64,000 nucleotides of DNA from the NCBI GenBank assembly GCA_016741915.1, contig JACVCS010000006.1:1-64000 (forward strand). Direction: 5' to 3'. Numbering within the stretch: the stretch's first letter is position 1; each line of letters starts with the position of its first letter. The position numbers and the translations under genes were made by a program. Below the pieces are notes generated by a model, which did not search any database, was not told the DNA's origin, and saw only the letters and a program-made list of their open reading frames with translations. Below are positions 20,941 to 58,736 of this stretch, one piece after another. The DNA comes from Phycisphaerales bacterium. GTDB lineage: Bacteria; Planctomycetota; Phycisphaerae; Phycisphaerales; UBA1924.

Positions 20941-21443
20941 AGACCCGATCGTACCGAACAGCCCATCCACGCACCCGCAGCAAACGACTCGAAAGTGCCT
21001 TACCCACTTTGACATAAACCGCCCATCTTCACAGCCCATCAAGAGCCAAACCGTCAGATCAAAAAACCGAGCCTCCAAGGCTAGTTTTGTCACCGATTTG
21101 CACTTGTCCTGGTAGGGGCATCAGGAGTTTCCCTCCCCTCCCCGTTCCGTGCGATCTGTGTGCTTCGTGTAAAACTCGCCCGGCCTGGCCAACCTTGTGC
21201 GCAAGAACAGCGAATCTGGCCGGCTCGTGGTGGATTCTTTTGGCCCTCGGGTTAGCCTATGAAGCCGGTCCCTAAGGGCCAACCGTCGGTTGAAGGTCCC
21301 CCAACGCTGCTTTTTCGGTCGTCGAAGCGACCAAGCTGGCTATCGGGCGGTCTCTACCAACGGCTAGTGTGTGGTCTTTGCGCCACGTTTGTTGATTGTT
21401 TGATCTGGTCTGCACCCATCGTTTTTCCTTTAGGAGATTGAAG
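20941..21443. other. Intergenic region, divergent ispD and dockerin gene
   Basis: About 500 bases with no supported gene. It must hold both promoters. AGGAG at 21432-21436 is the ribosome binding site of the plus-strand gene. A T-rich stretch lies just before it. No strong hairpin or promoter pair can be called by eye. Confidence 0.5.
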
Positions 21444-23570
21444 ATGAAGATCGCGTCCCTTCTCGCTGTGGTCGGTCTCGCCTGTACCGCTGGTTCCGCT
21501 TCCGCGCAGCTCAGCTACACCGGCACCTCGCTCGGGCAGAACTTCGACACCCTTTCGTCCTCCGCCTGGACGAACAACACCACCCTCCCGGGTTGGTTCC
21601 TCTTCCGCCAGCCCTCCCCGGGCACCGCCATCACCAGCATCAGCATCACCGCCGCCTCCGCCACCGGCTCGTTCTACGCCTTCGGCACCACCGATCGCGC
21701 TCTCGGCGGCGTCGGCTCCGGCGGCGCCTACTTCGGCAGCCCCGCCAACAACGCCGTCGCCGGCTGGATCGCCGTCGGCATCACCAACAACTCCGGTCAG
21801 AATCAGTCCTCCTTCACCATCGGCTTCGACGGCGAGCAGTGGCGCAACGCCGGTGCAACCGCCCCCGCGACCTCCGTCGCGCAGACCATGGTTCTCGAGT
21901 ACGGCTTCGGCGCGTCCTTCGACACCGTGACCACCTGGACCGCCCCCGGCGGCAACTTCGATTGGTCCACCCCGGTCTTCGGCACCAGCACCGCCGCCGC
22001 CGTTGACGGCAACGCCGCCGGCCTCGTCGCCGGTCGCGGCGGCACCATCACCGACAACTGGGCCCCCGGCACCACGCTGTGGATCCGCTGGGTCGAGCGC
22101 AACGATACCGGCAACGACCACGCCATCGGCATCGACAACTTCACCTTCTCCTCCGGTCCCGCGGCCAACCTCGTCCCCAACGTCACCAAGGACGTCGCCA
22201 ACCCCGCGAACCAGACCGCCCTCCCCGCCAACATCCCCTTCGTGATCTCCAACGTCCAGAACATCGGCACCGGCGCGACCTCCACCGCCACCATCACCGC
22301 CGACTTCCCCAACACCCTGACCTACAACGCCGGCGCGTCGACCCTCCCCTCGGGCGTCACCGCGGTCTTCAACCCTCCGACCCTCACCATCAGCCTGCCG
22401 ACGCTCAACGCCGGTCAGTCGCTGGGCTCCAACATCACCATCGTGATGACCTCCGCTACCACCGAGTTCCCCGCTGAGTTCCCCCTCGTGACCAACTGGC
22501 TCAGCACCGTCGGCGGCGACTCCGACTCCACCACCGCCATCGTCGCGGTTCCCCCGCCCACCGGCACCCTGGCGCCCGTGAGCTACACCGGCTCGAACAT
22601 CTCCCAGGACTTCCAGACCATGGTCGCCGCGGTTGCGACCTCCCCCTTCTCCAACACCACCGGTACCTCCGCCGCCGTCCCCGGCACCGCGATGACCGGC
22701 TGGGCCGTCAGCCGCTTCACCGGTTCCGCCACCACCGCCCTGCCCTACTTCAACGCCCTCCCCACCCCGCTCAACCCCTCGGGTGCGGCCAGCGGCGGCA
22801 TCTACCGCGTCTCCAACGCCAGCGACAACCCCTCCAACGTCGCCATCGGCACCCTCGCCTCGGGCTCCAACTCCCCCGCCTTCGGCGTCGCCATCAAGAA
22901 CGACTCCGCCAGCACCCTGACCTCCTTCACGGTTTCCTTTGACGGCATCGCTTTCCGTCAGAGCACCACCATCGATAACAAGCTCGACTTCTCCTACTGC
23001 ATCTCCACCGACAACACCTCCACCATCAACAACTTCCTCTCCAACACCGTCACCGCCACCGACGTCGATACCCTCGACGTCCTCGGCGACCCCTTCGTCA
23101 CCACCCAGGCGGACATCAACCCGCCCACCAAGACCGCCTACACCGCGACGGTCAGCAACGTCAGCATCCCCGCCGGCGCGACCCTCTTCCTCCGTTGGCG
23201 TGACGTCAACGACGCCGGCAACGACGCCGGTCTCGGCATCGACAACTTCACCTTCTCCGCCTCCTCGGGCGGCGGCGTCGCGGGTTGCAACCCCGCCGAC
23301 ATCGCCTGCGATACGGGTGATCCGCTGGTGAGCAACCCCGGCTGCACCAACAGCACCACCGGCCCGAACGAAGGCGACTACAACGCCTTCTTCGCGGCCG
23401 ACGGGTTCTTCTTCCAGGCCGGCCAGGGCTTGGCGGGCGTCGGCGGGTTCTGCGACATCGCCTGCGACAACGGCGACCCGCTCAGCCAGAACCCCGGTTG
23501 CACCAACAACGGTGTCAACGAGGGTGACTACAACTGCTTCTTCAACAACCTCTTCCTCCCCTGCGTCTGA
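21444..23570 (+). CDS. Exported protein with two related beta-rich domains and GC-type dockerin tail
   Basis: A 708-aa secreted protein. Signal peptide 1-22 (ending GSASAQ). Residues about 23-230 and 400-600 are two copies of one domain: both begin SYTG with S-Q-x-F following, both hold a G-W-x-x-S/F-R segment and a VGITNNSGQ/VAIKNDSAS-like strand, and both end GIDNFTFS. Between them lies a CARDB/DUF11-like segment starting NLVPNVTKDV. The dockerin tail is standard: CNPADIACDTG, PGCTN, NEGDYNAFF, CDIACDNG, PGCTNNGVNEGDYNCFF, ending LPCV. AGGAG seven bases before ATG 21444 fixes the start. The protein is Thr/Ser/Ala-rich and likely surface-bound. Its function is unknown. Confidence 0.85.
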   Translation: MKIASLLAVVGLACTAGSASAQLSYTGTSLGQNFDTLSSSAWTNNTTLPGWFLFRQPSPGTAITSISITAASATGSFYAFGTTDRALGGVGSGGAYFGSPANNAVAGWIAVGITNNSGQNQSSFTIGFDGEQWRNAGATAPATSVAQTMVLEYGFGASFDTVTTWTAPGGNFDWSTPVFGTSTAAAVDGNAAGLVAGRGGTITDNWAPGTTLWIRWVERNDTGNDHAIGIDNFTFSSGPAANLVPNVTKDVANPANQTALPANIPFVISNVQNIGTGATSTATITADFPNTLTYNAGASTLPSGVTAVFNPPTLTISLPTLNAGQSLGSNITIVMTSATTEFPAEFPLVTNWLSTVGGDSDSTTAIVAVPPPTGTLAPVSYTGSNISQDFQTMVAAVATSPFSNTTGTSAAVPGTAMTGWAVSRFTGSATTALPYFNALPTPLNPSGAASGGIYRVSNASDNPSNVAIGTLASGSNSPAFGVAIKNDSASTLTSFTVSFDGIAFRQSTTIDNKLDFSYCISTDNTSTINNFLSNTVTATDVDTLDVLGDPFVTTQADINPPTKTAYTATVSNVSIPAGATLFLRWRDVNDAGNDAGLGIDNFTFSASSGGGVAGCNPADIACDTGDPLVSNPGCTNSTTGPNEGDYNAFFAADGFFFQAGQGLAGVGGFCDIACDNGDPLSQNPGCTNNGVNEGDYNCFFNNLFLPCV

Positions 23571-23691
23571 TGCGGGAAGAAGGGCCGAGGGATGAGGGCT
23601 GAGGGCCGAGGGTGAAAACCTGAAGCCGAAAGCCTGAACCCCGAGATTCTGAAAAGCACAAAGCCCCGGATCGAAAGGTCCGGGGCTTTTT
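23571..23691 (+). repeat. Dockerin-gene 3' cassette, copy 1 (heptad spacer plus terminator)
   Basis: Right after the stop codon comes a tract of GGGNNGA-type heptads (23582-23616). CCTGAA-type heptads follow, then ATTCTGAAAAGCAC and the conserved terminator. Copies follow the genes ending at 26131, 36411, 38473, 43358, 56146 and 58737, in both orientations. The rest of the gap to 23968 holds the next gene's promoter and GAGGAG binding site. Confidence 0.9.
23660..23691 (+). terminator. Conserved cassette terminator, copy 1
   Basis: An 11-bp perfect stem, AAAGCCCCGGA with TCCGGGGCTTT, closes an 8-base loop TCGAAAGG and is followed by five T. The same stem and loop recur after six other dockerin genes. 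Confidence 0.92.
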
Positions 23692-23968
23692 GTTTGTTCT
23701 CGCGGCACAGGCGTGCGTTCATCGCCGTGATTCGTGCGAGCGTGCGTGCGATCTCCTGTTTCGCGTGCGGAGTGAGAACACCTGTTCGTTCTTGAACTGT
23801 CGTCAAAGGAATGATCAGCGAAATACCTCTGCTCCGGCGCGGGTTTGTGCCAGATTGGCCGATTGTGCGGACATTCGTGTGGATCAACAACGACTCGCGC
23901 CTTTGGGCTGGTCTGTCTGACCCGCCCGCGCGCGGTCTCGTGGTCTGATCATTTCTGAGGAGAAGTTC

Positions 23969-26131
23969 ATGAAGATGCAGTTGTATCGACTCGCGGTGTT
24001 GGCCGGTGGGCTGGTTTGTTGCAGTGCGGCGAGCGCACAGTGGGTGCCTTCGGGCAGCCCGTTCGCGGGGCCTTACACCGTCGTCGGAACGGGCGGGTTC
24101 TTCCAGTCGATCAATCTGGGCGGCGAGTCGGCACCCGCCGGTTCGTACTGGCGCGCGAATGTCACCGCGCTGTGGTCCGGTGCGCCGGGTTCGACGACTT
24201 CGCTGTGGCAGAACGACTCAAAGATGTCACTGACCAATGCGCCGGTGAACGGCGTGGCGGCCGTGCCTTCGGGCGTCACGGTGCATTTCGGCACCACCAC
24301 CGGCACCGCGCCCACCACGGGCGTGAACTCCAACACCACCGGAACGATCCGTTACGACAACATCAACCTCGTCCCGACCTTTGTCGCGGGCAACCCGCTA
24401 CACATGGCCTTCCGCACCAGCTTCACCAGCGGCGGCAACTTCACCTGGTCCAACATCACCGTCTCGCTGACGCCCACGCCCCCCGCACCCGTGAATGAAA
24501 CCTGCGCCACCGCGATCGATGTCTCAGCGGGTGCAAACGCAGCGCTCACAGGCCCGTTCACGAACTTCATCCCCCCCGCACAAGAGATCGGCGGCGCGAA
24601 TCCCTCCACGATTGCGCCCTCACCTTTCTCGTGTCAGGCGACGGTCAGCCGGGCGACGTGGTACGCCTTCACGCCCTCGGCCTCCGCGGCGTACATCGTC
24701 GGCTCGTGCACCTCCGCGGGCCTCGCCACGCAGAACACCATGGTCAACAACGTCGTGGCGCTCTTCGACGGCACCAACGGCTGCGCTTCGCTCTCCTCGC
24801 TGGCCTGCACCACCACCACCTGCTCCGGCGGCGTTCAGAGCTCGAACATCAATCTCAACGCGGGCACCACGTACTACATCGCACTGGCGCGCACGGGCAC
24901 AACCGCCCTCGCCGCCACCGAACTCAAGTCCCAGATCTTCATCTCCCGCGCTGATCAGGCCATCTGCGGCGCGAACGTCGAGACCGAACCCAACGACACC
25001 GCCGCAACCGCCAACAGCTTCACGCTGAACCTCGGCGACACAATCTGCGGCACCAGCACCGGCTCGGGCACTTCCGGCGGCGGGCTCACCTCCGGCGACA
25101 CCTTCCGCATCAAAACCGCCGCTCACCCCGGCATCCGCCGAAACCGCATCCGCGTCGCTTCGTCCCTCGCCGGGCACACGCTGATTATCCGCGGGCTCTC
25201 ACAGAGCGCTGGCGTCATCGGTACCAGTGAATCCGACATCCAGACTTCCAACACCGCCACCGTGCCCACCCGCATGGTCCAGTGGTACACCCTGGGCAAC
25301 AGCCCCGACGCCAACGACCGCTCGATCAACCTGCGCGTCACGGGCACCACCTCCACCACCGCACAGTACTCGTTGAACTACATCGCCTCAGACGAGATCG
25401 TCCCGACCGATCTCGCACGCACCATCCGCCCCGGCTCGCTGGTCATCACCTCCGTCGGGCAGACCACCACCGACACCGACCTGTGGATCTACGACGCCAA
25501 CCTCAACCCCATCGCCAACTTCGGCAACGACGACGAGCCCGGCACCTCCAGCACGCAATCCCGCCTCACCCGCACCTTCAACGCGGGCACCTATTACATC
25601 GCCATCAGCCGCTTCAACCTCGCCAACAACCAGCCCGCCGCCACCGACGACGACTTCAAGTCCGCCAACGTCTTGCCCTTCCCCGGCACCCTCGTCCGCG
25701 GCGGCACCTTCCCCACACTGCCGCTCAGCCTCAACTTCAAGGTCACCGACAGCGAAGGCGACGTCACCCAGTCGTACACCGTCAACGACGCCTTCGAGGT
25801 CGCGTTCTTCAAGATGACTGTCGCACCGGCCCCGAGCACCGGCGGCTGCAACCCGGCCGACATCGCCTGCGATGACGGCACGCCGCTGGCCGCGGCTCCG
25901 GGCTGCACCAACAGCACCACCGGGCCAAACGAAGGTGACTACAACGCCTTCTTCGCGGCGGATGGGTTCTTCTTCCAGTCGGGTCAGGGCCCCGCCGGCG
26001 TCGGCGGCACCTGCGACATCGCCTGCGACGACGGCACGGCACTCTCCCAGGCCCCCGGTTGCACCAACAACGGTGTCAACGAGGGCGACTACAACTGCTT
26101 CTTCAACAACCTCTTCCTCTCCTGCATCTGA
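23969..26131 (+). CDS. Exported PPC/DVUA0089-like protein with GC-type dockerin tail
   Basis: A 720-aa secreted protein. The signal peptide ends SAASAQ near residue 24. The first mature domain begins QWVPSGSPFAGPYT and is shared with the proteins ending at 36411 and 56146. Next comes a pre-peptidase C-like domain (ETCATAIDV ... ATWYAFTP ... TYYIALARTG), then an ETEPNDTAATA module. That module has a STGSGTSGGGLTSGD turn and a TRTFNAGTYYIAISR end, as in DVUA0089-family PPC domains. The dockerin ends GDYNCFFNNLFLSCI. GAGGAG at 23957-23962 supports ATG 23969. No catalytic domain is seen, so a binding or display role is likely. Confidence 0.85.
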   Translation: MKMQLYRLAVLAGGLVCCSAASAQWVPSGSPFAGPYTVVGTGGFFQSINLGGESAPAGSYWRANVTALWSGAPGSTTSLWQNDSKMSLTNAPVNGVAAVPSGVTVHFGTTTGTAPTTGVNSNTTGTIRYDNINLVPTFVAGNPLHMAFRTSFTSGGNFTWSNITVSLTPTPPAPVNETCATAIDVSAGANAALTGPFTNFIPPAQEIGGANPSTIAPSPFSCQATVSRATWYAFTPSASAAYIVGSCTSAGLATQNTMVNNVVALFDGTNGCASLSSLACTTTTCSGGVQSSNINLNAGTTYYIALARTGTTALAATELKSQIFISRADQAICGANVETEPNDTAATANSFTLNLGDTICGTSTGSGTSGGGLTSGDTFRIKTAAHPGIRRNRIRVASSLAGHTLIIRGLSQSAGVIGTSESDIQTSNTATVPTRMVQWYTLGNSPDANDRSINLRVTGTTSTTAQYSLNYIASDEIVPTDLARTIRPGSLVITSVGQTTTDTDLWIYDANLNPIANFGNDDEPGTSSTQSRLTRTFNAGTYYIAISRFNLANNQPAATDDDFKSANVLPFPGTLVRGGTFPTLPLSLNFKVTDSEGDVTQSYTVNDAFEVAFFKMTVAPAPSTGGCNPADIACDDGTPLAAAPGCTNSTTGPNEGDYNAFFAADGFFFQSGQGPAGVGGTCDIACDDGTALSQAPGCTNNGVNEGDYNCFFNNLFLSCI

Positions 26132-26252
26132 TGCGGGAGGAAGGGCCGAGGGATGAGGGCCGAGGTTTCAGGGTGAAGCCCTGAAGCCAAAGCCCAAAGT
26201 CCTCAGATTCTGAAAAGCATGAAGCCCCGGATCGAAAGGTCCGGGGCTTTTT
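26132..26252 (+). repeat. Dockerin-gene 3' cassette, copy 2
   Basis: GGGCCGA and GGGATGA heptads from 26143 keep 7-base phase to about 26177 and then run into GCCCAAA-type heptads. CAGATTCTGAAAAGCA leads into the shared terminator. The order and most bases match copy 1. Confidence 0.9.
26222..26252. terminator. Conserved cassette terminator, copy 2, between convergent genes
   Basis: AAGCCCCGGA pairs with TCCGGGGCTT around TCGAAAGG, with five T after it. The opposing gene ends at 26296 and has no other terminator, so this stem may serve both. Confidence 0.88.
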
Positions 26253-26295
26253 GTTTGGAGACGTGCGTTTTCGGAGTTCAACGCGGCGACCGTGA

Positions 26296-36120: not shown

Positions 36121-36287
36121 GGTCAAGAAGAACCGGCTACGCGGTGCACTTTCTTTACCGCAGAAACCGGTGGGCTGATCCATCAAAGTACACGATTGTC
36201 GGATGATCGCAAGGGTTATCCCGTATATCCCCGGTTTGAAGTAGGTGAAAATACCGATACCGAGAGTGGATTTCAGCCCAAAAAGCA

Positions 36288-36320
36288 ACAAAAAGCCCCG
36301 GACCTTTCGATCCGGGGCTT
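36288..36320 (-). terminator. Conserved cassette terminator, copy 3
   Basis: AAGCCCCGGA and TCCGGGGCTT flank CCTTTCGA, the reverse complement of the loop in copies 1 and 2. The A-rich left side gives a U-run on the minus strand. Confidence 0.9.
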
Positions 36321-36410
36321 CGTGTCTTTCAGAATCTCAGGGTTCAGGCTTTCGGCTTCAGGTCGTCACCCTCGGCCCTCGGCCCTCATCCCTCGGCCCT
36401 TCTTCCTGCA
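36321..36410 (-). repeat. Dockerin-gene 3' cassette, copy 3 (heptad spacer)
   Basis: Between the stop of the gene ending at 36411 and the terminator lie TCGGCCC and TCATCCC heptads (the complement of GGGNNGA) and then the TTCAGG-type heptads. The remaining gap, 36066-36287, holds the protease promoter; GGGTTATCCC occurs at 36213. Confidence 0.88.
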
Positions 36411-38093
36411 TCAGATGCAGGGGAGGAAGAGGTTGTTGAAGAAGCAGTTGTAGTCACCCTCGTTGACACCGTTGTTGGTGCAACCGGGGGCGGCGGAGAG
36501 CGCTGTACCGTCGTCGCAGGCGATGTCGCAGGTGCCGCCCACACCCGCGGGGCCTTGACCCGACTGGAAGAAGAACCCGTCGGCCGCGAAGAAGGCGTTG
36601 TAGTCACCCTCGTTCGGCCCGGTGGTGCTGTTGGTGCAGCCCGGAGCCGCGGCCAGCGGCGTGCCGTCGTCGCAGGCGATGTCGGCCGGGTTGCAGCCCG
36701 CGACCGTGGTGCTACCCACGACCATCTTGTAGAACTTGATATCGAAGTTGCCCGCGGCGGTGGCGCTGGTGACGAACGCACCGGTGCCGTCGGTGATCTG
36801 GAAAGAGATGTTGGTGTTCACACTGGTGGAACTGGAGACCATCACGCCCGGGAAGTCGGTCGTCTCGCTCGACTTGTACTGGTCATCCGACGCGGCGGGG
36901 GTGCTGATGGCGGTGTTGTACCGGGTGACAGCGAGGTAGTACGTACCCGCGGCAAAGGTCCGCGTCAGCTTCGAGCCCAGCGTTGTGCCGGGGAGCGGCT
37001 CATCCTCGTTGGAGAAGTTCGCGATGATGTTGTAGTTGCTGTCCAGCACGACAAGCGTCGTGTCGGTTTGGGTCGCGCCGGTCTGCCCGACGGTGGAGAT
37101 TGTCACGCTGCCCGGCGTGATCGACCGGACCAGATCGGCGGGGACCACCGCGTCGGCCGAGTTCACCGTCAGGCGATACTGCGACGTTGAGCTGGTTGAA
37201 CCGGCGACGCGGGCGTAGATCGAGCGGGCGTCGGCCGAGGTGTCGTTCCCGAAGGTGTACCACACCACGCGTGTGTTGCCCGCAAGGACCGAAGCGGTCT
37301 GCAGCGTCGAGTCAAGGGCGGGGTTGATCACCGCCGCGGTCTGATCGGTCCCGCGCAGCGTCAGCGTCGGCAGCGTGCCGAGTGATTCGATGATCAAGCT
37401 GCGACGGACGATGCCGGGGTGAGCGGCGGTGGTGATCTTGTAGTAGTCCGCGGTGGACAGACCGCCGCCGGAGAGCCCGCTGCCCGTCGAAGTGCCGCAC
37501 ATCGAGGTGCCGACGGTGGAGACGAAAGTTCCCGAGAGCGCCTTGCTGTCGTTCGGCTCGCTCTCGGTGGCGCCGCAGACCAGCGGCGCGGGCGGGGGAG
37601 ACAACGTGACGGTGACGTTGGACCACGTCGAGGACGCGTCCGCGAAGGTGTACGAGTTGCGCAGGTTCAGGAAGAGCGTGTTGACGCCGTCGGCGACAAA
37701 CTGCGTCCCCAGGTTGACGTTGTTCCACGTCAGGGTTCCAGCAGCGGCGGAGTTCAGCGCCCCTTGCGGTGCGGTGGCGGCCAGGTAGAGCGTCCCGCCG
37801 CCGGTGAGGACCGTTGCGCCCTCGACCGTTGAAGCGGTCAGCGCGATGCGCTGATCGGACTGCCACTGCGGATCAAGCCCGCCACCTTCAGACCATTGCG
37901 CGGTGACGGAGATGCGCCCGTAGTTGCCCGCGGGCGCCGAAGCTGCCCCGAGATCGATCGAGTGGTACTCGCCCACCGCGGTGGTGGTGTACGGACCGGC
38001 GAAGGGGCTCCCCGCCGGCGTCCATTGAGCCTGGGCCATCGAAACGCAGGCCAGCGTGCCAGCAACGGCAGAAAGCAATGCAGAACGGTTCAT
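36411..38093 (-). CDS. Exported DVUA0089-like protein with GC-type dockerin tail
   Basis: A 560-aa secreted protein. The signal peptide ends CVSMAQAQ near residue 22. The first domain (QWTPAGSPFAGPYT ... WSNVTVTLSPPP) matches those of the genes at 23969 and 56146. It is followed directly by one ESEPNDSKALSG module that includes GSGLSGGGLSTADYYKI and LTRTFAAGTYYLAVTRY. Unlike its two paralogues it lacks the inserted ETCATA PPC domain. The dockerin has the inner Cys pairs and ends LPCI. AAGGA lies eight bases before ATG 38093. It probably binds or displays rather than catalyses. Confidence 0.85.
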   Translation of the reverse strand: MNRSALLSAVAGTLACVSMAQAQWTPAGSPFAGPYTTTAVGEYHSIDLGAASAPAGNYGRISVTAQWSEGGGLDPQWQSDQRIALTASTVEGATVLTGGGTLYLAATAPQGALNSAAAGTLTWNNVNLGTQFVADGVNTLFLNLRNSYTFADASSTWSNVTVTLSPPPAPLVCGATESEPNDSKALSGTFVSTVGTSMCGTSTGSGLSGGGLSTADYYKITTAAHPGIVRRSLIIESLGTLPTLTLRGTDQTAAVINPALDSTLQTASVLAGNTRVVWYTFGNDTSADARSIYARVAGSTSSTSQYRLTVNSADAVVPADLVRSITPGSVTISTVGQTGATQTDTTLVVLDSNYNIIANFSNEDEPLPGTTLGSKLTRTFAAGTYYLAVTRYNTAISTPAASDDQYKSSETTDFPGVMVSSSTSVNTNISFQITDGTGAFVTSATAAGNFDIKFYKMVVGSTTVAGCNPADIACDDGTPLAAAPGCTNSTTGPNEGDYNAFFAADGFFFQSGQGPAGVGGTCDIACDDGTALSAAPGCTNNGVNEGDYNCFFNNLFLPCI

Positions 38094-38353: not shown

Positions 38354-38383
38354 AAAGCCCCGGACCTTTCGATCCGGGGCTTT
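38354..38383 (-). terminator. Conserved cassette terminator, copy 4
   Basis: The full 11-bp stem AAAGCCCCGGA with TCCGGGGCTTT is present around the CCTTTCGA loop. Confidence 0.9.
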
Positions 38384-38472
38384 GTGCTTTTCAGAATCTG
38401 AGGACTTTGGGCTTTGGCTTCAGGTCTTCACCCTCGGCCCTCGGCCCTCATCCCTCGGCCCTTCTTCCTGCA
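38384..38472 (-). repeat. Dockerin-gene 3' cassette, copy 4 (heptad spacer)
   Basis: TCGGCCC and TCATCCC heptads follow the stop of the gene ending at 38473, then GGCTTTG and CTTCAGG-type heptads run toward the terminator, very close to copy 2 in sequence. The remaining gap, 38094-38353, carries CAGGGTAAACCCCTG at 38307 and no gene. Confidence 0.88.
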
Positions 38473-40668
38473 TTAGACGCAGGGGAGGAAGAGGTTGTTG
38501 AAGAAGCAGTTGTAGTCACCCTCGTTGACACCGTTGTTGGTGCAACCGGGGTTCGTCGCCAGCGGGTCGCCGTTGTCGCAGGCGATATCGCAGGTGCCGC
38601 CGACCGCGGCCGCACCCTGGCCGGACTGGAAGAAGAAGCCGTTCGCACTGAAGAAGGCGTTGTAGTCGCCTTCGTTCGGCCCGGTGGTGCTGTTGGTGCA
38701 GCCGGGGTTCGACGCCAACGGGTCGCCGTTATCGCAGGCGATGTCGGCCGGGTTGCAACCCGCGACCGCTCCGCCGCCGACGTTGAACTTCACCCACACC
38801 ACGTCGAAGGGGCCTTCCTTGGGAGTCGCGATGGTGTTCGGGCCGACCGAGTCGGTGAAGGTCATCGAGAGACCGGCGACGAGCGTGGTGGTCGAGTTGG
38901 CCACCGCGGGGTCGAGTTCGAGCACGGCGCTGCTGCGGGCGGTCGCGTCGGCGGGCGACGGGCGCAGGTCGGCGGTGTTCGTGTTCGACACGGCCATGTA
39001 GTACGTGCCGGGAGTGAAGGTGCGCGTCAAGGCGGCGGTGCCTTCGATGAGGAAATCACCGACGGGGTTGAGCTGACCGTCGAAGACAAGCAGATCGAAC
39101 GAGGTTGCCGCGTCAGCGCGAGAGATCGTGATCGAGCCGGGCGCCAGGTTGCCGCTGAGTTGCAGCGGGGTGACGGGTGTGGTTTCGAGGGTGGCGATGT
39201 ACTCGCCGGTGGTGGTGGTGCCACCGGCGACGCGGTACTGCATGCGTTCGCGCTTGCCGAAGCCGTACCACTGGTTGAACCGCGGCGGCGTCGACGTGGT
39301 CGAAGAAGTCTGCAGGGTGGCGTCGGTGCCGGGGTTGATGTTGCCGGTGGTCTGCGTCAATCCGCGGAGGGTGCCCGTGTGCCCGGCCGTGCCCGACGTG
39401 GTGATGATCATGCGGTGGCGGTAGATGCCCAGCGGGGCGGCGGGCGTGCGGATGGTGTAGTAGTCGGCGCTGCCTTCGCCGGCTACGGTTGTGCTGGCGC
39501 CCGTGGAGAAGCCGTAGACACCCTGACCGCTGGAGATCTCCGCCAAGGTGGCGGTGAGTTTGGAGTCGTTCGGTTCGGTCTCCACAACGAAGCCCGCGGG
39601 GACGGCGGCGTGAACGCGGAGCAGGACGCTGCCGCTGCCCGTGCGGCTCTGGGCGTCGGTGATGGTCAGCGGGATGGTGTATTGACCGGGGGTCTGGTTC
39701 GCGGGAACGGCGAAGGAGCCGGTGAAGTTGTTGCCGCCATTGTCGGTCAGGACGAGCGGTGACGCGATGCCGAACTGTGAGAGATTGGCGGAGATGGCCA
39801 TGCCCGTGCTGGGCGGGTTGGTCCCGGAGAAGGCGGTGACGTTGAGGTTGACGTTGCCGCTGCCGGCGATGATCGGCGAGGGCGTTGCTGTGCCGCTGGC
39901 ACCGGGGTTGAGCGAGGCGTTGGAACCGCCCGCGGCAAAGACCAGGGCGTTGGCCATCAGACGCGCGCCGTCGGTCGAGGAGATCCAGAAGCCCGAACTC
40001 GAATCGCTCGACGGCGGATAGAGACCGAGGTCAACACGCTTCGCCAGGTTCGGCGATGAACTGACGGCGACGAGCGTTCTGCCGTCGGCCCAGGCCGCGA
40101 CGCGGACCGAACCGGGCGTGAGCACGGTGCTGGTCGGGCGTGAGCCTGTGGAGCCGCTGGAGAGGCTGTTGACACCCGTCATGATGGGGTGGTTGGGGAT
40201 GTCGATGGTGCCAAGAGTCGTCGAGCCAGTCGAGCTCCCGCCGCCGGAGGGAATGATCTCGTACCCACCGGTGATGAACCGGCCGCCGATGATCCGGGCG
40301 GTGGTGGTGGTGCTGTTCGAGAAGACGGCGTTGACGACGCCGCGGCCGGAGTCGACATAATCGGCGAGCACGTTGCCCAGCGCGGTGGCATCGGCGAAGT
40401 TGACGTTGCTCCAGACGATGACGGCGTCGTAGGTTTGCAGCGTTGCCAGGGTGGGCGTGCTGGAGGTGGCGTTGATGATGTCCACAACCGCGAACTGGCC
40501 GGTGGCGAGCAGTTTCGCCTGCGGGTCGGTGAAGCGGGTGCTGGTCGAGGCGGTATCCGCCGCGGCGACGATGGCCACCTTCGGCTGCGCGAAGGCCTGA
40601 GCGGCCAGCAGCAACGACGCCGCGGTGACGAAGACCTGACGTGCGCGTGTGAGGAGTGAGCGATTCAT
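38473..40668 (-). CDS. Exported ThuA-like/DVUA0089-like mosaic protein with GC-type dockerin tail
   Basis: A 731-aa secreted protein. The signal peptide ends QAFAQ near residue 28. Residues 29-240 resemble a class I glutamine amidotransferase or ThuA-like fold (KVAIVAAADTAS, YDAVIVWSN, LADYVDSGRG, NHPIMTGV), with no evident catalytic Cys. An Ig-like domain and an ETEPNDSKLTATLAE module follow, the latter ending LTRTFTPGTYYMAVSN. From about residue 255 onward it is closely similar to the protein of the neighbouring gene, which has a different front. The dockerin ends LPCV. AAGGAG lies five bases before ATG 40668. The two genes may be co-transcribed: the 126-base gap has no terminator. Confidence 0.83.
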   Translation of the reverse strand: MNRSLLTRARQVFVTAASLLLAAQAFAQPKVAIVAAADTASTSTRFTDPQAKLLATGQFAVVDIINATSSTPTLATLQTYDAVIVWSNVNFADATALGNVLADYVDSGRGVVNAVFSNSTTTTARIIGGRFITGGYEIIPSGGGSSTGSTTLGTIDIPNHPIMTGVNSLSSGSTGSRPTSTVLTPGSVRVAAWADGRTLVAVSSSPNLAKRVDLGLYPPSSDSSSGFWISSTDGARLMANALVFAAGGSNASLNPGASGTATPSPIIAGSGNVNLNVTAFSGTNPPSTGMAISANLSQFGIASPLVLTDNGGNNFTGSFAVPANQTPGQYTIPLTITDAQSRTGSGSVLLRVHAAVPAGFVVETEPNDSKLTATLAEISSGQGVYGFSTGASTTVAGEGSADYYTIRTPAAPLGIYRHRMIITTSGTAGHTGTLRGLTQTTGNINPGTDATLQTSSTTSTPPRFNQWYGFGKRERMQYRVAGGTTTTGEYIATLETTPVTPLQLSGNLAPGSITISRADAATSFDLLVFDGQLNPVGDFLIEGTAALTRTFTPGTYYMAVSNTNTADLRPSPADATARSSAVLELDPAVANSTTTLVAGLSMTFTDSVGPNTIATPKEGPFDVVWVKFNVGGGAVAGCNPADIACDNGDPLASNPGCTNSTTGPNEGDYNAFFSANGFFFQSGQGAAAVGGTCDIACDNGDPLATNPGCTNNGVNEGDYNCFFNNLFLPCV

Positions 40669-40794: not shown

Positions 40795-42975
40795 TCAGAC
40801 GCACGGCAGGAAGAGGTTGTTGAAGAAGCAGTTGTAGTCACCCTCGTTGACACCGTTGTTGGTGCAGCCGGGGTTCGTCGCCAGCGGGTCGCCGTTGTCG
40901 CAGGCGATGTCGCAGAACCCGCCGACGCCACCGGCGCTCTGGCCGGCCTGGAAGAAGAAGCCGTTCGCGGCGAAGAAGGCGTTGTAGTCGCCTTCGTTCG
41001 GCCCGGTGGTGCTGTTGGTGCAGCCGGGGTTGCTCACCAGCGGATCACCCGTATCGCAGGCGATGTCGGCGGGGTTGCAACCCGCGGTTGCGCCGCCGGT
41101 GACGGTGATCTTGACCCAGATGACTTGGAACGGCTCGGTCTTCGGGGTGCCGATCTCGATGGCGTTGCCGGTGCTGTCGACGAAGCGCAGGCCCATCGCC
41201 GCGACCAGCGTGGTGGAGGAGTTGATCACCGCGTTGGGGTTGTCAAGAACGCTGCTGCCGCGAGCGGTGGAATCAACGGGCGTGGGACGGTTGTCGGCGG
41301 TGTTGACGTTCGAAACCCCGATGTAGTAGGTTCCGGGGGTGAAGGTGCGGGTGAGCGACGTTGTGCCTTCGTAGACGAAGTCGCCCATCGCGGTAAAGGT
41401 CGAGTCGTAGATGAGGTAATCCATCGCCGCGGTCACCCCGTTCGCGCGAGAGATGGTGATCGAGCCGGGCTGAAGTGCGGTGGTGAGCTCGATGGGGGTG
41501 ACGGCCTGGGTCTCCAGCGTCGAGGTGTAGTCGGAGGATGTCGTGGTTGAACCCGTGACGCGGTAGGAAACTTCTTCGCGTTTGCCGAAGCCGTACCACT
41601 GGTTGAATCGCGGCGGGGTCGACGTGGTGGACGAGGTCTGGAGGGTGGCGTCGGTCCCGGGGTTGATGTTGCCGGTGGTCTGCGTCAGGCCGCGGATGGT
41701 GCCGGTGTGACCGGCGGTGCCGATGGTGTTGATGACCATGCGGTGGCGGTAGATCCCCGGCGCGGCGGCGGGGGTCTTGATCACGTAGTAGTCGGCGCTC
41801 GTGTCACCCGGAACGGTGGTGCTGGTGCCCGTGGTGAAGCCGAAGACGCCTTCGCCCGGCGAGATCGCGGCCGAGGTGGCGGTGGCCTTTGAGTCGTTGG
41901 GTTCAACTTCCGCGACAAACCCCGCGGGCGGGCCGCCGCGGACACGCAGGGCGACCTCGGCGCTGCCGCTTCGGCCTTGTGCGTCGGTGATGGTGATCGG
42001 GAAGGTGTAGATGCCGGCGGTGAGGTTCGCCGGGGGCGTGACCTGAAGCGTGAAGGTGTTGTTTGGCCCTGCATTCATGAGCACCGAAGCCCCGCCGCCG
42101 ATGGATTGCAGGTTCGCGTTCGCGAACAACCCGGTTGACGGGTTGGCCCCCGCGACCGGCAACGCCCGTACGGTGATGATCGAGTTGTTCCCGGCGATGA
42201 TGTTGTACGGCGTCATGTATCCAGCGCCGTTCGGAACGGTTGGCTCAGCACAATCACTGCTGACATAGGCCAGCCCAAGGATGTTGTTGGTGGGGATATC
42301 ACCAACCCGGTGGGCGACACCGGTGTCGGTATCGATGAGATAGAGCCCGTCGGTGCCGGTGTCGATGAGGTATAGCCCGCCGTTGTCTTTGTGATACGCC
42401 AGGGCCTGTGGGTTGCTGATGCCGCTGCCGAGGACGGAGAGCAAGGTGGCCTGTCCGGTGGCGCGGTTGATGGTGTAGATCGAATCGGTGTTGCTGCTGG
42501 TGCCGAAGAGCGTGTCGAGTCGGCGGTGGTAACCGAGGTTGAAGAACGACGTGGTGCCGGAGGGTCCGATGGGGGTGGCAAACCCGGTGGTGGGGTTGAT
42601 GGAGTAGAGGGTGCCGTCGCTGCCGCCATAGATCGTGCCGGTGGAGTTGTCGAACTCGAGCCCGTGCATGACGATGGCGCTGTTTCCGTAGTTCCCAACG
42701 AGTGTTGCGGTGCCGGTGCCGAGATTCAGGGTGTAGAGGTTGTCATTGCCGGTGGAAGAGACCCAGAGTGTTTGACTGGCGCAGTCGAAGGCGAGCCCGC
42801 CGGTGGTGCCGGCGTTGGAACTCACGGTGCCGATGTTCGTGCCTGCGCCGGTGCTCGGGTTGATCTCGTACAGGGTGTTGCCGCTGGTCACGGCGACAAG
42901 TCGGTTCTGAGCCATCGCCGAGCCGCTGAAAAAAAGAAGTGCGGCGATTGCAACGCGGAAGGTCGTCATATTCAT
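40795..42975 (-). CDS. Exported beta-propeller/DVUA0089-like mosaic protein with GC-type dockerin tail
   Basis: A 726-aa secreted protein. The signal peptide ends GSAMAQ near residue 23. The first 270 mature residues are short repeats such as NTLYEINPSTGAGTNIG, GTLYSINPTTGFATPIG and GGLYLIDTGTDGLYLIDTDTG, which form a beta-propeller of the kind found in DUF4394 and related proteins. An Ig-like domain and an EVEPNDSKATATSA module follow, nearly parallel to the protein encoded downstream. The dockerin ends LPCV. ATG 42975 has GGAG seven bases upstream, better placed than the in-frame ATG at 42981. No cassette or terminator follows it. Confidence 0.85.
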   Translation of the reverse strand: MNMTTFRVAIAALLFFSGSAMAQNRLVAVTSGNTLYEINPSTGAGTNIGTVSSNAGTTGGLAFDCASQTLWVSSTGNDNLYTLNLGTGTATLVGNYGNSAIVMHGLEFDNSTGTIYGGSDGTLYSINPTTGFATPIGPSGTTSFFNLGYHRRLDTLFGTSSNTDSIYTINRATGQATLLSVLGSGISNPQALAYHKDNGGLYLIDTGTDGLYLIDTDTGVAHRVGDIPTNNILGLAYVSSDCAEPTVPNGAGYMTPYNIIAGNNSIITVRALPVAGANPSTGLFANANLQSIGGGASVLMNAGPNNTFTLQVTPPANLTAGIYTFPITITDAQGRSGSAEVALRVRGGPPAGFVAEVEPNDSKATATSAAISPGEGVFGFTTGTSTTVPGDTSADYYVIKTPAAAPGIYRHRMVINTIGTAGHTGTIRGLTQTTGNINPGTDATLQTSSTTSTPPRFNQWYGFGKREEVSYRVTGSTTTSSDYTSTLETQAVTPIELTTALQPGSITISRANGVTAAMDYLIYDSTFTAMGDFVYEGTTSLTRTFTPGTYYIGVSNVNTADNRPTPVDSTARGSSVLDNPNAVINSSTTLVAAMGLRFVDSTGNAIEIGTPKTEPFQVIWVKITVTGGATAGCNPADIACDTGDPLVSNPGCTNSTTGPNEGDYNAFFAANGFFFQAGQSAGGVGGFCDIACDNGDPLATNPGCTNNGVNEGDYNCFFNNLFLPCV

Positions 42976-43240
42976 GGTCATTCTCCACCGATAGCCATGA
43001 CGGGCGCAGACTGCTTCCGCCATGACAAAGCCTGTTTGCTGATGTACACAACGCACGCCAGAACTGGCGGACTTCTTCAGCGTACACGCATCTCGACCAA
43101 ACACAAGGGGAAACACATACAGAGTTCCCCTGAGTTTGCATCGGGTTTTCCCCGGGTTCCTTCGCGGACGCCGCGTCCGCTACCGATCCCAAACCGCCCG
43201 CCACGATGCTTGCCCGCACATCAACCCTTCACCAAACCAC

Positions 43241-43268
43241 AAGCCCCGGACCTTTCGATCCGGGGCTT
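43241..43268 (-). terminator. Conserved cassette terminator, copy 5
   Basis: AAGCCCCGGA and TCCGGGGCTT flank CCTTTCGA. The A-run on the left is short here (CCAC precedes), so the U-tract is weak. Confidence 0.82.
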
Positions 43269-43357
43269 TGTGCTTTTTGAATCTGGGCACTCGGGATCTT
43301 GGCTTCGGGTCTTCACCCTCGGCCCTCGGCCCTGATCCCTCGGCCCTTCTTCCCGCA
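43269..43357 (-). repeat. Dockerin-gene 3' cassette, copy 5 (heptad spacer)
   Basis: The same order as the other copies: heptads TCGGCCC, TGATCCC and TCGGCCC next to the stop, then decayed CTTCGGG heptads. The remaining gap, 42976-43240, holds the propeller gene's promoter with GGGTTTTCCCC at 43143 and no gene. Confidence 0.86.
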
Positions 43358-45079
43358 TCAGATGCACGACAGGAAGAGGTTGTTGAAGAAGCAGTTGTAA
43401 TCGCCCTCGTTCACGCCGTTGTTGGTGCAACCGGGGTTGCCCGAGAGCGGGTCCCCGTTGTCGCAGGCGATGTCGCAGGTGCCGCCGACGCCGCCCGCAC
43501 CCTGCGCCGCCTGAAAGAAGAACCCGTCGGCGGCGAAGAAGGCGTTGTAATCGCCCTCGTTCGGACCGCTGGTGCTGTTGGTGCAGCCGGGGTTCGACCC
43601 AAGCGGATCACCGTTATCGCAGGCGATGTCGGCCGGGTTGCAGCCACCCGCGGGGGCATCGATTCCCAGACCGCCGGTGGGGTTGATGCGTTGAACGAAG
43701 ATGTCGCTGTCGGTGCCGTTGCGGGTTTCGTGCCAGGCGGCGACGATCGCGCCGTTGGTTCCGTCGCGTTCGATGTTCAGCCGCCCCTTGCCGTTGACGT
43801 TGCTGTTCACGTCGATGATGGGTGATGCGGTCCACGCGTCGGTGCCGTCGGGGTTCAGACGGGTGGCTCTCACCTTGAAGTTCACCGCGTCGGCGTAGTT
43901 GAACCACACCACGGTGTACCCGGTCGGATCGGCCAGGCCCTGCACAAAGCTCTTGGGCAGGGCATCCAGCGCCAGGATCGTCCGACCATCGGCGCCCCAC
44001 TGCGGGTTGCCCGACGCGTCGAACTTCTGCGCACTGACGCCCTGCTGGTTCTGCGAGCCGTTGGCCGACTGCAGGCACATGTACGTCTCGTTGTTCGAGG
44101 TCAGGTAGCTCATGCTCGCGGCGAGCTGGTTGATCGTGCTGCCGAAGAGGCCCGGAGCCGCATAGACCGGCGAGGCCGCATCGTTCAACCGCGCCGTCCG
44201 GGCGCGAAGCGTCGAGCTGCCTCCGCTGAACCACGCGGTGACCAGCCCGCCGCTGCCGTCGCTGACGGCGGGGGGGTAGAACGCGATGGAGAGCCCGTCG
44301 GTGGACCAGATCGGTTGCGCCAGCGGCGCGCCGGGGTTCGGGAGCTGCGGCACGCCCAACGCGTCAAACTTCTGCACGTACACGTGCCGCGGGTTGAATG
44401 ACTGCGTCCCCGCGCGGCGCTGGATGGTCACCCAGAACCCGTCGTTGTTCGCCCGGCACAGGTCACCCGTCAGGTACGGGCGGCTGGCCTCCGACAGCGT
44501 CACCCGCCCAGTCCCGCCCCAGACGTTCGTCCCATCCGCATTGTTCAAACGGTAGATCTCGATGGTGTTGCTGACGCTCGAGGCCACCACGATCGAGTTA
44601 TCACCCATGATCAGCAGTTTCGGATCGGCGTTAAAGGTCCCCGCGCTGGCGAGCGTGCGCTGCCAGGCGATGGTGCCGTTGGCGTCGATCCGCGCCACGG
44701 TGGTGAGCAGGTTGCCTTGACGGTCATCGGGGAAGGCGAGGATCGCGTTGCCGTTGTTGTCGACCTCCAGGTCGTAGTCGGTGGTGGAGGATTGATTGCG
44801 ATCCGCGACGAGGATGCCGTCGGCCGTCCACTGCGGCACGCCCGCGCTGTTGAGCTTCTGGATGTACACGTCGTTGCCGCCGCTGCGATTGTCGAACCAC
44901 GACACGTAGAACGAACCGTCCTGCGATTGCTTGATCTTGGGTTGAACCTGACTGCCGCTGGCGGTGCAGACCGGCGTGTTCACCGCCGCATCGCTCGACC
45001 ACTGCGCAAGCGAGACGGACTGACCGCTGAGCAGGCTCAGGGCGGCAACGCACATCAAACGGGCGGGGGCGTTCTGCAT
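43358..45079 (-). CDS. Exported beta-propeller-like protein with GC-type dockerin tail
   Basis: A 573-aa secreted protein. The signal peptide ends QSVSLAQ near residue 25. The body consists of strands with recurring WFDNRSGGNDVYIQKLNSAG-like, YVQKFDALGVPQ, SAQKFDASGNPQWGADG and DIFVQRINPTG segments. This is the pattern of proteins that fold as a beta-propeller and are often annotated as FG-GAP-free Delta-60-like repeats. The dockerin has both inner Cys pairs and ends LSCI, like the gene at 23969. No active site is visible. It is monocistronic with its own cassette. Confidence 0.83.
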   Translation of the reverse strand: MQNAPARLMCVAALSLLSGQSVSLAQWSSDAAVNTPVCTASGSQVQPKIKQSQDGSFYVSWFDNRSGGNDVYIQKLNSAGVPQWTADGILVADRNQSSTTDYDLEVDNNGNAILAFPDDRQGNLLTTVARIDANGTIAWQRTLASAGTFNADPKLLIMGDNSIVVASSVSNTIEIYRLNNADGTNVWGGTGRVTLSEASRPYLTGDLCRANNDGFWVTIQRRAGTQSFNPRHVYVQKFDALGVPQLPNPGAPLAQPIWSTDGLSIAFYPPAVSDGSGGLVTAWFSGGSSTLRARTARLNDAASPVYAAPGLFGSTINQLAASMSYLTSNNETYMCLQSANGSQNQQGVSAQKFDASGNPQWGADGRTILALDALPKSFVQGLADPTGYTVVWFNYADAVNFKVRATRLNPDGTDAWTASPIIDVNSNVNGKGRLNIERDGTNGAIVAAWHETRNGTDSDIFVQRINPTGGLGIDAPAGGCNPADIACDNGDPLGSNPGCTNSTSGPNEGDYNAFFAADGFFFQAAQGAGGVGGTCDIACDNGDPLSGNPGCTNNGVNEGDYNCFFNNLFLSCI

Positions 45080-51985: not shown

Positions 51986-52214
51986 GAGATCTCTCCTGAA
52001 TACAAGACGGGGTGAGGGCGAGCGACAGCGGACGCCGCAGGGCACGCGCCGTGCGGTTGATGTGTGACGGGGCCAGAACGCACCGATCGCGGTGGGCGTG
52101 AGCTTGCGCGATCGGAAGCGTGATGTGGAGCGGTCGAAACCGGGTTGTCGCCCGCGGCCGTGCGGGCTCGGAATGTCAACACCCGGCGTTGCCGGGCGCT
52201 TCAGTGAGGAACGA

Positions 52215-55789: not shown

Positions 55790-56021
55790 TCGGCGGCACT
55801 CCTTGTTCTTCCTTCGACCCTGAAAACCCCGGCCGAGCTGTTCGGTTCCGAGTTGGCCCGCCCCCTTGAACCTTCCGCGTACCCCACCATCTGCCAACCC
55901 CCGTCGCCGGGGGATCACCCGTTTATGAACTTCCCAGATTCACACACATTCCAGATACCCGGGCGTTTCACCGATGGTCGAGTATCGAAACGCCTCGCCA
56001 TTCAGGGTTATTGCACGCCCA

Positions 56022-56056
56022 AAGAAAAAACCCCGGACCTTTCGATCCGGGGCTTT
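56022..56056 (-). terminator. Conserved cassette terminator, copy 6
   Basis: CCCCGGA and TCCGGGG pair around CCTTTCGA. The stem is shortened by loss of the G pair, but six A on the left give a good U-run. Confidence 0.88.
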
Positions 56057-56145
56057 GTGCTTTTCAGAATCTCAGGACTTCGGACCGTGGCTTCGGGTCT
56101 TGACCCTCAGCCCTCGGCCCTCTTCCCTGGGCCCTTCCTCCTGCA
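56057..56145 (-). repeat. Dockerin-gene 3' cassette, copy 6 (heptad spacer)
   Basis: Decayed heptads of the TCAGCCC/TCGGCCC type follow the stop of the gene ending at 56146. The TTTTCAGAATCTCAGGA tract next to the terminator matches the other copies. The remaining gap, 55790-56021, holds the peroxidase promoter and no gene. Confidence 0.86.
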
Positions 56146-58320
56146 TCAGAGGCACGGCAGGAAGAGGTTGTTGAAGAAGCAGTTGTAGTCGCCTTCGTTC
56201 ACGCCGTTGTTCACGCAGCCCGGCGCCTGGGAGAGCGCGATGCCGTCGTCGCAGGCGATGTCGCACGTGCCGCCGACAGCCGCCAGACCCTGACCGGCCT
56301 GGAAGAAGAACCCGTCAGCCGCGAAGAAGGCGTTGTAGTCACCTTCGTTCGGCCCGGTGTTGCTGTTGACACAACCCGGAGCCGCGGCCAGCGGGATGCC
56401 GTCATCGCAGGCGATGTCCGCGGGGTTGCAGCCGCCGCTCGCCACTGGCGCCACGACGATCTTGAAGAAGGCCACGTCCCACGGGCCGGGGGTCGAAGCG
56501 GCGGTGATCACGTCGCCTTCGCTGTCGGTGATCTTGAAGCCAACGTTGGTCGGAGTCGCGTTGGGGCTCGAGTCGCCGCGGACGAGCACGCCGCCGAAGT
56601 CGCTCAGCGGACCGCCGCGCCAGCGGTCATCGGTCGGGCTGGTGACGTTGGTCGCCAGGTTGTACTCCGCGATGGCGAGGTAGTACGTACCGGCGGTGAA
56701 GGTGCGGGTGAGCTTCGAGCCGAGGCTGCTGCCCGGCGAGGGCTCGTCGTCGTTGATGAAGTCGCTGAAGACCTTGAAGTTGGAATCCAGGATGATCATG
56801 TCCGTGTCGGTTTGCGAGGTGCCGGTTTGACCGACGGTGTTGATCGTGATCGTGCCCGGACGCAGCGTGCGGGCCAGATCCACCGGCGTCACGTCCGAGG
56901 AGGTCATCTGCACGCGGTAGTCGGTCACGGCCTGCGGAACGCCCGACACGCGGACGTACACGTTCGCGTCGTCAGCCGCAACCGGGTTGCCCAGGGTGTA
57001 GAACTGAACGTGCTTGTCGGTGATGGCACCGGGGAGGAACGAGGTGTTCTCGAGCACCGAGAGCGTGGCGGGGGTCGCCGCACCGGCGGTCTGCCCGATG
57101 CCCAGGATCTCGATGTTGTTCGTGCCGGTGAAGGTGAAGTTGCGGAGCTGGTGTTTGACGATCCGCGCCGGGCCCGCCGCGACGTTCGCCTTGACCTTGA
57201 AGATGTCGACGGAGGTCAGACCCGGGGTCAGCGTGTCGGACCCGGTGCTGTTGCCGCAGATCACCTGGCCCGCGTTGAGCGTGACCACGTTCGAGGCGGC
57301 CTTGCTGTCGTTGGGCTCGGTCTCGGACGTCGTGCAGGCCGGCAGCGGCGCCACGCGATCAGCGCGGAGCTGGTACCGCTTCTCTGCCGAGCCCAGCGCC
57401 GTCGTGCCCGTGCGGCCGACAACGACGTAGTAGCTCTTCGACGCGTCGAGCTCAACGGGGATGCCCAGCGCGCCGCCGGTGCAGGTCAGCGTCGAGCAGG
57501 CCACCTGCGTCAGCACGCCGCACGGATCAGCGGGGTTGTACTCGAAGATCCCGATGATGTTGTTCGAAACGCTGTTGATCGTCCCGCTGCTGGTACAGGT
57601 CTGGAAGCGGTACGGCGCGCTCGCCGGGGGCTGGAACTTGTACCAGATGGTCCGCGTGACGGCGGCGGCGGAGCAGCCAAAGGTCGGCTGACCGACGGCC
57701 GCGCTGCTGCCGGCAACCATGAGCACCGAGGGCAGGATCGTCGACGTGCCCGGGCCCGTCAGCGCGGTCGCGAGGTTCGGGGTGATGTCCGTCGCGGTGG
57801 CGCACGTCTCGTTGGGGATCGAGGGCGCCGCGGTGGAGAGCGTGACCGACAGGTTCGAGAGCTTTACCGCTGAACCCGAGGTCCAGCTCGTGCGGAAGGC
57901 GAGGAAGAGCGGCTTGACGCCGTCGGCGGCGAAGGCCGAGTCCATGTTCGCATCCCACAGGATCGTGCCCGGGGTGTTGCTGGCAAGGGCGGTGGTCGGC
58001 GCGGCGCCGCCGGTTGAGAAGTTGCTGTAGTAGCGGGTGGTGGCGCCGGGGACGGTCGTCACGCCGTTGACCGCGGCGCTGGTCAGCGCGGCGCGGATGT
58101 CGTTCTGGAACTGGTTGCTGGCAGCGTCAAAGGAGTAGTCAGCGCGGATCTGCACGAACCCGTACGACGCCGGCGGGATCGCCGGACCGTTCAGATCGAT
58201 CGACTGAAACTGCCCGTTGATCGGGACGGTGTAAGGCCCGGCGAACGGACCAGCGGTGTACTGCGCGAGCGCGGGAGAAACACACATTGCCGCGGCCGCC
58301 AACGCGAGAAGCTTCTTCAT
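56146..58320 (-). CDS. Exported PPC/DVUA0089-like protein with GC-type dockerin tail
   Basis: A 724-aa secreted protein with the same plan as the gene at 23969. The signal peptide ends VSPALAQ near residue 20. An AGPFAGPYTVP domain follows, then a PPC domain (ETCATATDI ... TIWYKFQPP ... SYYVVVGRTG), then an ETEPNDSKAASN module with LTRTFTAGTYYLAIAEY. The dockerin has CVN instead of CTN after each PG, but both inner Cys pairs are kept; it ends LPCL. AGGAG lies six bases before ATG 58320. It is probably a surface-displayed binding protein. Confidence 0.85.
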   Translation of the reverse strand: MKKLLALAAAAMCVSPALAQYTAGPFAGPYTVPINGQFQSIDLNGPAIPPASYGFVQIRADYSFDAASNQFQNDIRAALTSAAVNGVTTVPGATTRYYSNFSTGGAAPTTALASNTPGTILWDANMDSAFAADGVKPLFLAFRTSWTSGSAVKLSNLSVTLSTAAPSIPNETCATATDITPNLATALTGPGTSTILPSVLMVAGSSAAVGQPTFGCSAAAVTRTIWYKFQPPASAPYRFQTCTSSGTINSVSNNIIGIFEYNPADPCGVLTQVACSTLTCTGGALGIPVELDASKSYYVVVGRTGTTALGSAEKRYQLRADRVAPLPACTTSETEPNDSKAASNVVTLNAGQVICGNSTGSDTLTPGLTSVDIFKVKANVAAGPARIVKHQLRNFTFTGTNNIEILGIGQTAGAATPATLSVLENTSFLPGAITDKHVQFYTLGNPVAADDANVYVRVSGVPQAVTDYRVQMTSSDVTPVDLARTLRPGTITINTVGQTGTSQTDTDMIILDSNFKVFSDFINDDEPSPGSSLGSKLTRTFTAGTYYLAIAEYNLATNVTSPTDDRWRGGPLSDFGGVLVRGDSSPNATPTNVGFKITDSEGDVITAASTPGPWDVAFFKIVVAPVASGGCNPADIACDDGIPLAAAPGCVNSNTGPNEGDYNAFFAADGFFFQAGQGLAAVGGTCDIACDDGIALSQAPGCVNNGVNEGDYNCFFNNLFLPCL

Positions 58321-58612: not shown

Positions 58613-58647
58613 CAAAAAAAGCCCCAGACCTTTCGATCCGGGGCTTT
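58613..58647 (-). terminator. Conserved cassette terminator, copy 7
   Basis: AAAGCCCCAGA pairs with TCCGGGGCTTT with one A-C mismatch around CCTTTCGA; seven A on the left give a strong U-run. Confidence 0.88.
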
Positions 58648-58736
58648 GTGCTTTTCAGATTCTTCGGATTCAGGCTTTCGGCTTCAGGTTTTCACCCTCA
58701 AACCTCGGCCCTCATCCCTCGGCCCTTCTTCCTGCA
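58648..58736 (-). repeat. Dockerin-gene 3' cassette, copy 7 (heptad spacer)
   Basis: TCGGCCC and TCATCCC heptads lie next to the stop at 58737, then GGCTTCA and TTCAGG-type heptads lead to the terminator. The remaining gap, 58321-58612, holds the promoter of the gene starting at 58320, with GGGGAAACCC at 58518, and no gene. Confidence 0.88.

Follow-up and report, generated by a model that had tools for sequence, protein, structure and literature searches.

Recognition within cellulosomes is known to be private to the species. Their type I dockerin (PF00404) is built from two EF-hand-like repeats and serves as one tag on many different proteins. The GC-type dockerin (NF041540, dockerin_GC) is a C-terminal pair of D..D.G...N..D...F repeats carried by many exported proteins and occurs in the same bacterial family as the genome studied here. 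PEP-CTERM signals are also small, exchangeable C-terminal sorting modules of many exported proteins, and to our knowledge no shared DNA cassette is known for them. Domain accretion at protein C-termini is common but rarely caught happening. For freshwater Planctomycetes, non-cellulosomal cohesin-dockerin complexes have been proposed under the name 'Planctosome' (PMC6461901), and the passages of that article considered here contain no discussion of the sharing of gene ends. Judging from its tails and gene content, the genome studied here is probably that of a planctomycete. A literature search pairing dockerins with gene conversion likewise returned nothing on the present subject.

The stretch of DNA that we analysed, referred to as the window, comprises 64,000 nucleotides (bases 1-64000 of contig C100) of genome G000. 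The assembly is 3.59 Mb in 160 contigs and 92% complete; it is fragmented and of metagenome type, which is a caveat on the cassette evidence. About 15 otherwise dissimilar genes for exported proteins were found to have near-identical last ~400 bases, which encode a C-terminal docking-type domain and continue through the stop codon into a transcription terminator. A first-pass annotation of the window had named seven genes in which a dockerin-coding end is followed by a common noncoding block. This arrangement is present in all seven (two genes lie on the plus strand, five on the minus strand), and the resulting inverted and direct repeats span 207-429 nt at 81-92% identity, confirming that both orientations occur. 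We also found an eighth gene with the tail, in which identity ends at the gene's own stop codon. The genes are labelled by their ends as A (23570), B (26131), C (36411), D (38473), E (40795, the eighth gene), F (43358), G (56146) and H (58737), and their features are as follows.

23286..23570, plus strand: gene A, tail-coding part, two dockerin-like repeats, 94 amino acids plus stop; upstream part unrelated to the other cassette genes
23571..23696, plus strand: gene A, noncoding block with heptad array, ATTCTGAAAAGCAC and terminator stem at 23660-23689
25847..26131, plus strand: gene B, tail
26132..26257, plus strand: gene B, noncoding block with terminator
36411..36695, minus strand: gene C, tail, like those of B and C28:4325
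36287..36410, minus strand: gene C, noncoding block, 98% identical to that of C148:7139 and not like that of B; mosaic junction
38473..38757, minus strand: gene D, tail
38354..38472, minus strand: gene D, noncoding block with terminator
40795..41079, minus strand: gene E, tail without noncoding block, 93% identical to the gene A tail
43358..43642, minus strand: gene F, tail; upstream part unrelated to the other cassette genes of the window
43233..43357, minus strand: gene F, noncoding block with terminator
56146..56430, minus strand: gene G, tail
56020..56145, minus strand: gene G, noncoding block with terminator
58737..59021, minus strand: gene H, tail; upstream part unrelated to the other cassette genes of the window
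58616..58736, minus strand: gene H, noncoding block with terminator

In each of the seven genes first listed, the shared unit takes in the last ~282 coding bases and the stop codon, followed by ~120 noncoding bases that close with the terminator. The first-pass annotation had proposed mapping where nucleotide identity begins inside the coding region. We did so and found that it begins 3-6 nt before the Cys codon (TGCAACCC, TGC) that opens the tail, whilst its 3' limit is the T-run of the terminator. Between unrelated genes, identity upstream of the tail is 0.34-0.39 in 30-base bins, which is the chance level. It rises to means of 0.66-0.93 across the tail-coding part and 0.88 in the noncoding block (11 core copies), and beyond the terminator it falls to 0.27, again the level of chance. 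These are sharp-ended tracts of identity set in unrelated flanks, the pattern expected of gene conversion or ectopic recombination. Within the block, identity is 0.95 in the terminator, 0.90 in the heptad part and 0.81 in the middle part. In core cassette pairs, identity at fourfold-degenerate sites is 0.65, above the null of 0.45 but far below the 0.88 of the block, so tail and block have no one simple shared age. There would be two time scales, probably because tails also exchange with a bigger pool of block-less tails and blocks recombine only with blocks.

The noncoding block ends in the stem AAAGCCCCGGA/TCCGGGGCTTT with loop TCGAAAGG, which scored as an intrinsic terminator. As described in the first-pass annotation, it is present throughout: two copies, at 23660-23689 and 38354-38383, are exact, and each of the five others has a single mismatch. 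The element ATTCTGAAAAGCAC proved less constant than described, being exact in three of the seven blocks (A, D and G) and represented by variants at the remaining sites. The G-rich heptads are a wider repeat of the genus and are not specific to the cassette: GAGGGNNGAGGGNNGAGG has 16 matches in G000, 11 of them within cassettes, and there are 40 heptad matches in the congener G001, most of them outside cassettes. The heptad part is shortened in the same way in the unrelated genes C28:7495 and C148:7139. The heptad array (23571-23660 and homologous blocks) is predicted to form an imperfect hairpin with short G-C steps before the terminator. Folding of the whole block gave z ~ -4.4, with seven consensus pairs and only one compensatory change, so that covariation is scarce. 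The block was rejected as a conserved RNA element, as no Rfam family came near threshold. Several 3' flanks in G001 (L152, L156, L172, L177, L185 and L187) hold other heptad arrays (GGCAATC, GGGCACT, AGTGCTG) and the palindrome GTGGGGCAGGCGTCCCGCCTGCC, often behind tail genes. Two further repeats were seen in the window. Five tandem 138-nt repeats at 32651-33339 (minus strand) encode FRWT-type repeats in the protein ending at 32092, and an inverted 96-nt repeat, 88% complementary, lies outside the cassette at 53100-53195 and 61761-61856, its arms 8.5 kb apart.

The tail itself is a 94-residue pair of tandem repeats with conserved D, N and F positions. D5, E29, D31 and F35 are invariant, as are D57, N74, G76, E79, D81 and F85, and AlphaFold2 modelled the tail with confidence (pLDDT 94.4). 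Comparison of this predicted model with PDB folds gave no match, and a profile search of PDB sequences with the tail gave no significant match. Pfam Dockerin_1 (PF00404) matched none of 116 genus tails. NF041540 matched neither the window proteins tested nor the tail consensus at its curated cut-off (29 bits); at E <= 1, it matched 62 of the 116 tails (best 5.8e-8), and genome searches gave 10 weak matches in G000 and 44 in G001. The sole Dockerin_1 match in the window, at residues 842-890 of the protein at 49067-52045 (minus strand), lies directly before a genus-type tail, and this protein thus has two dockerin-type units in a row. The cohesin family PF00963 had no match in G000 (92% complete) or G001, and because no Pfam cohesin was found, docking is a role that we infer. 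The dockerin label given in the first-pass annotation therefore needs qualifying: the window tails match neither Pfam Dockerin_1 nor NCBIfam, and a diverged GC-type dockerin is the best reading. The tail is probably such a dockerin, acting as a C-terminal sorting or docking tag. Throughout the window tails, variable loop residues tend to agree between the two repeats of one protein, as in DNGDPLASNPG and DNGDPLATNPG, a sign that the halves of a tail may exchange sequence or be under matched selection. The protein at 45465-48659 (minus strand), which has an orthologue in G001, consists of many ~50-residue repeats with the motif ELWxSDGTxxGT and is also tailed.

A protein search of G000 gave 88 tail matches; the detailed comparison covered 72 genes, those whose upstream part could be used. 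The tail lies at the extreme C-terminus of these many unrelated exported proteins (~72 genes). BLAST detected 14 blocks in G000, every one directly 3' of a tail stop codon and none behind an unrelated gene. Seven of them lie outside the window, on contigs C28 (three), C148 (two), C146 and C114. Alignment added a clear copy on C132 and diverged copies on C41 and C60, giving up to 17. The ~55 remaining tails have a fourfold-site excess of 0.075, close to the cross-species excess of 0.06, and recent DNA exchange is therefore not supported for them. Homogenisation of all tails at the DNA level was accordingly rejected, as it was seen only in the cassette subset and in some individual pairs. Conversion is documented for a subset of tails only.

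Within that subset, the copies are mosaic. Gene C agrees with B and C28:4325 at 91-97% in the tail but at only 84-86% in the block, where it is 98% identical to C148:7139. A PHI-like test on tail plus block gave 0.555 against 0.617 (sd 0.013) in permuted data, with none of 2000 permutations as low. Mosaic copies and a significant recombination test are both marks of gene conversion or ectopic recombination. The first-pass annotation had suggested that tail and terminator spread as a unit. One DNA unit is indeed common to genes with unrelated upstream parts, and its copies are mosaic; it is not indivisible, as gene E has a tail without the block and gene C joins a tail and a block of different ancestry.

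Among 61 genomes, the genus-type tail was found at E <= 1e-5 only in G000 and G001. In 26 reciprocal-best orthologues between these two, upstream parts are 26-76% identical and tails 0.57 identical, the latter matching random cross-species tails (0.56); within-genome averages are 0.67 (G000) and 0.71 (G001). At the protein level, tails, and tails only, are thus more alike among paralogous copies in a genome than between orthologues. Sharing of gene ends was also seen in G001, where one tail pair with unrelated upstream parts is 97% identical and 16 of 63 tails share 3' repeats, 31 of the 35 pairs involved being unrelated upstream. The repeat sharing is weaker evidence because some of these repeats (GGGNNGA heptads) are also found away from tails.

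Two proteins, those ending at 49067 and 58737, were traced into other genera. Their orthologues mostly have a C-terminal dockerin-type pair, whose flavour differs from genome to genome. In all nine genomes in which both proteins were found, the two tails best match each other in both directions (mean identity 0.72), as against 0.36-0.37 between orthologues of different genomes. NF041540 has from 29 to at least 120 matches in 16 of the 21 family genomes examined from other genera, against the 10 weak ones in G000. The 44 tails of G007 are 0.77 identical in protein with fourfold sites at the null (0.535 vs 0.513), and no common 3' flank lies behind them; for the tails of this other genus, no shared noncoding cassette was seen. 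A private flavour without DNA-level homogenisation means that protein-level selection must also act, and the uniformity in G007 is presumably kept at the protein level by a common receptor.

These comparisons bear on the claim that the cassette could convert any exported protein into a docked one, which was not borne out. The orthologues that we followed mostly had tails already, of another flavour, and no cohesin was found. Since orthologues in both sets usually carry a dockerin-type tail, the cassette mainly replaces or homogenises tails, a reading better supported than addition to naive genes. The search for tail-less orthologues, also proposed in the first-pass annotation, found both sets mostly tailed and gave one partial exception. 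Homologues of the gene A domain (gene at 21396-23570) in G001 (L338), G020 (L334) and G037 (L335) have a PEP-CTERM-like end instead of the tail, in keeping with the tail being one among several C-terminal sorting modules that can be exchanged.

Copying of gene ends within this genome is well supported. We think it probable (roughly 0.7) that the shared 3' ends arose by repeated copying of this kind, most likely through ectopic homologous recombination (gene conversion) between dispersed tail repeats. The ~285-base tail, present in ~70 genes for exported proteins, would supply the homology. A conversion tract would start in the tail. Towards the 5' end it would be checked by the lack of homology between the upstream genes, but in the 3' direction it may extend through the stop codon and terminator. 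A tract running through the terminator would allow the recipient gene to inherit the terminator block of the donor. Exchange of tags would go on among the genes of one cell because selection keeps all of its tags in a single private flavour, presumably the one that fits a common receptor.

Recent whole-gene duplication, with the 3' ends as the part not yet diverged, was an alternative that the first-pass annotation considered damaging to its proposal. By their upstream parts, about half of the cassette genes do form one paralogue family (B, C, D, G, C28:15452, C28:4325, C148:7139, C148:9822 and C41, together with E, which has no block). However, A, F, H, C28:7495 and C146 are unrelated upstream to each other and to this family, yet have the same tail and block; C132 and C114 show weak or partial upstream matches to others. 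Gene A and C28:15452, unrelated upstream, are 96-98% identical across tail and block. Even within the family, the most alike tails have DNA identities of 0.86-0.95 against 36-66% for the upstream protein. Pairs in that upstream range whose tail DNA reaches 0.90-0.95 are not accounted for by duplication, and nor is the mosaic of gene C. Genes B and C, for example, are 46% identical in upstream protein and 94% in tail DNA. Duplication alone is thus refuted for the whole set and very improbable as the explanation, but could still account for individual pairs, for example B and C28:4325. We also consider it extremely unlikely that short metagenome reads were misjoined at repeats. A 160-contig assembly at 92% completeness invites that concern, but the longest exact run between any two of 12 compared cassettes or tails is 93 nt and copies differ by 2-20%, so that typical assembly word sizes would be expected to separate them. 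The independent genome G001 moreover has the same kind of exchange.

Tails that must fit one receptor could also change in parallel and become alike through protein-level selection, with no exchange of DNA. The genome-private flavours across the family, the synonymous sites at the null in the highly similar G007 tails and the invariant D/N/G/F positions all favour such selection. It leaves unexplained why the noncoding block is shared, why identity breaks off sharply 3' of the terminator and how stretches of unrelated genes can reach 97% DNA identity. As an account of the shared ends it is rather unlikely; the noncoding identity refutes it as the sole cause for the cassette genes, and it is likely a co-factor for the remaining tails. 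A dedicated mobile element is quite improbable. In that case an enzyme, acting by retro-homing as in a diversity-generating retroelement or as a transposase on a REP or heptad element, would move the cassette to the 3' ends of genes, tail-less ones included. The 3'-terminal unit with its final hairpin does resemble a retroelement target layout, heptad arrays are dispersed repeats in the genus, and PEP-CTERM-like ends are also seen on the gene A domain. Against this, the unit contains no long gene apart from the tail, every block detected lies behind a tail, and the copies are mosaic, as recombination predicts. A search of G000 (92% complete) found no reverse transcriptase (PF00078), which makes a retroelement unlikely, and a diversity-generating retroelement was rejected on this ground.

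Returning to copying by recombination, the untranslated end of the unit serves as a tracer, showing that DNA, beyond the design of the protein, has moved between unrelated genes. Related bacteria have the same proteins under different labels, each uniform within its genome. One tentative and rather speculative picture is that each genome of the family maintains a single private C-terminal address label for 70-120 exported proteins, that a new label would spread by copying of ends from gene to gene and that the cassette is this copying caught happening; the G-rich heptads may be recombination hot spots that carry the terminator along. How a cell relabels dozens of proteins and yet still matches its receptor becomes a testable question. 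It also offers a route to the receptor of GC-type dockerins, which should diverge in step with the tails.

Like GC-type dockerins, the tails are C-terminal repeat pairs on exported proteins, and orthologues of tailed proteins in other genera carry tails of that type, but the window tails have 94 residues as against ~55 and contain loop insertions. With the cellulosomal dockerin they share the repeat pair and its use as one tag on many proteins, and they differ in having no PF00404 match and no PDB fold match, in a genome with no PF00963 match. The 'Planctosome', as set out in the passages considered (PMC6461901), needs cohesins, which were not found here. PEP-CTERM signals have another sequence and presumably another machinery. 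Diversity-generating retroelements similarly have target genes whose 3' ends vary and are followed by a hairpin, whilst G000 has no detected reverse transcriptase. The concerted evolution of dispersed repeats by gene conversion shows the same high identity within a genome and low identity between species, the same mosaics and the same boundaries where homology ends. What differs here is that exchange is limited to the 3' ends of genes that are otherwise unrelated, and that the terminator moves with them.
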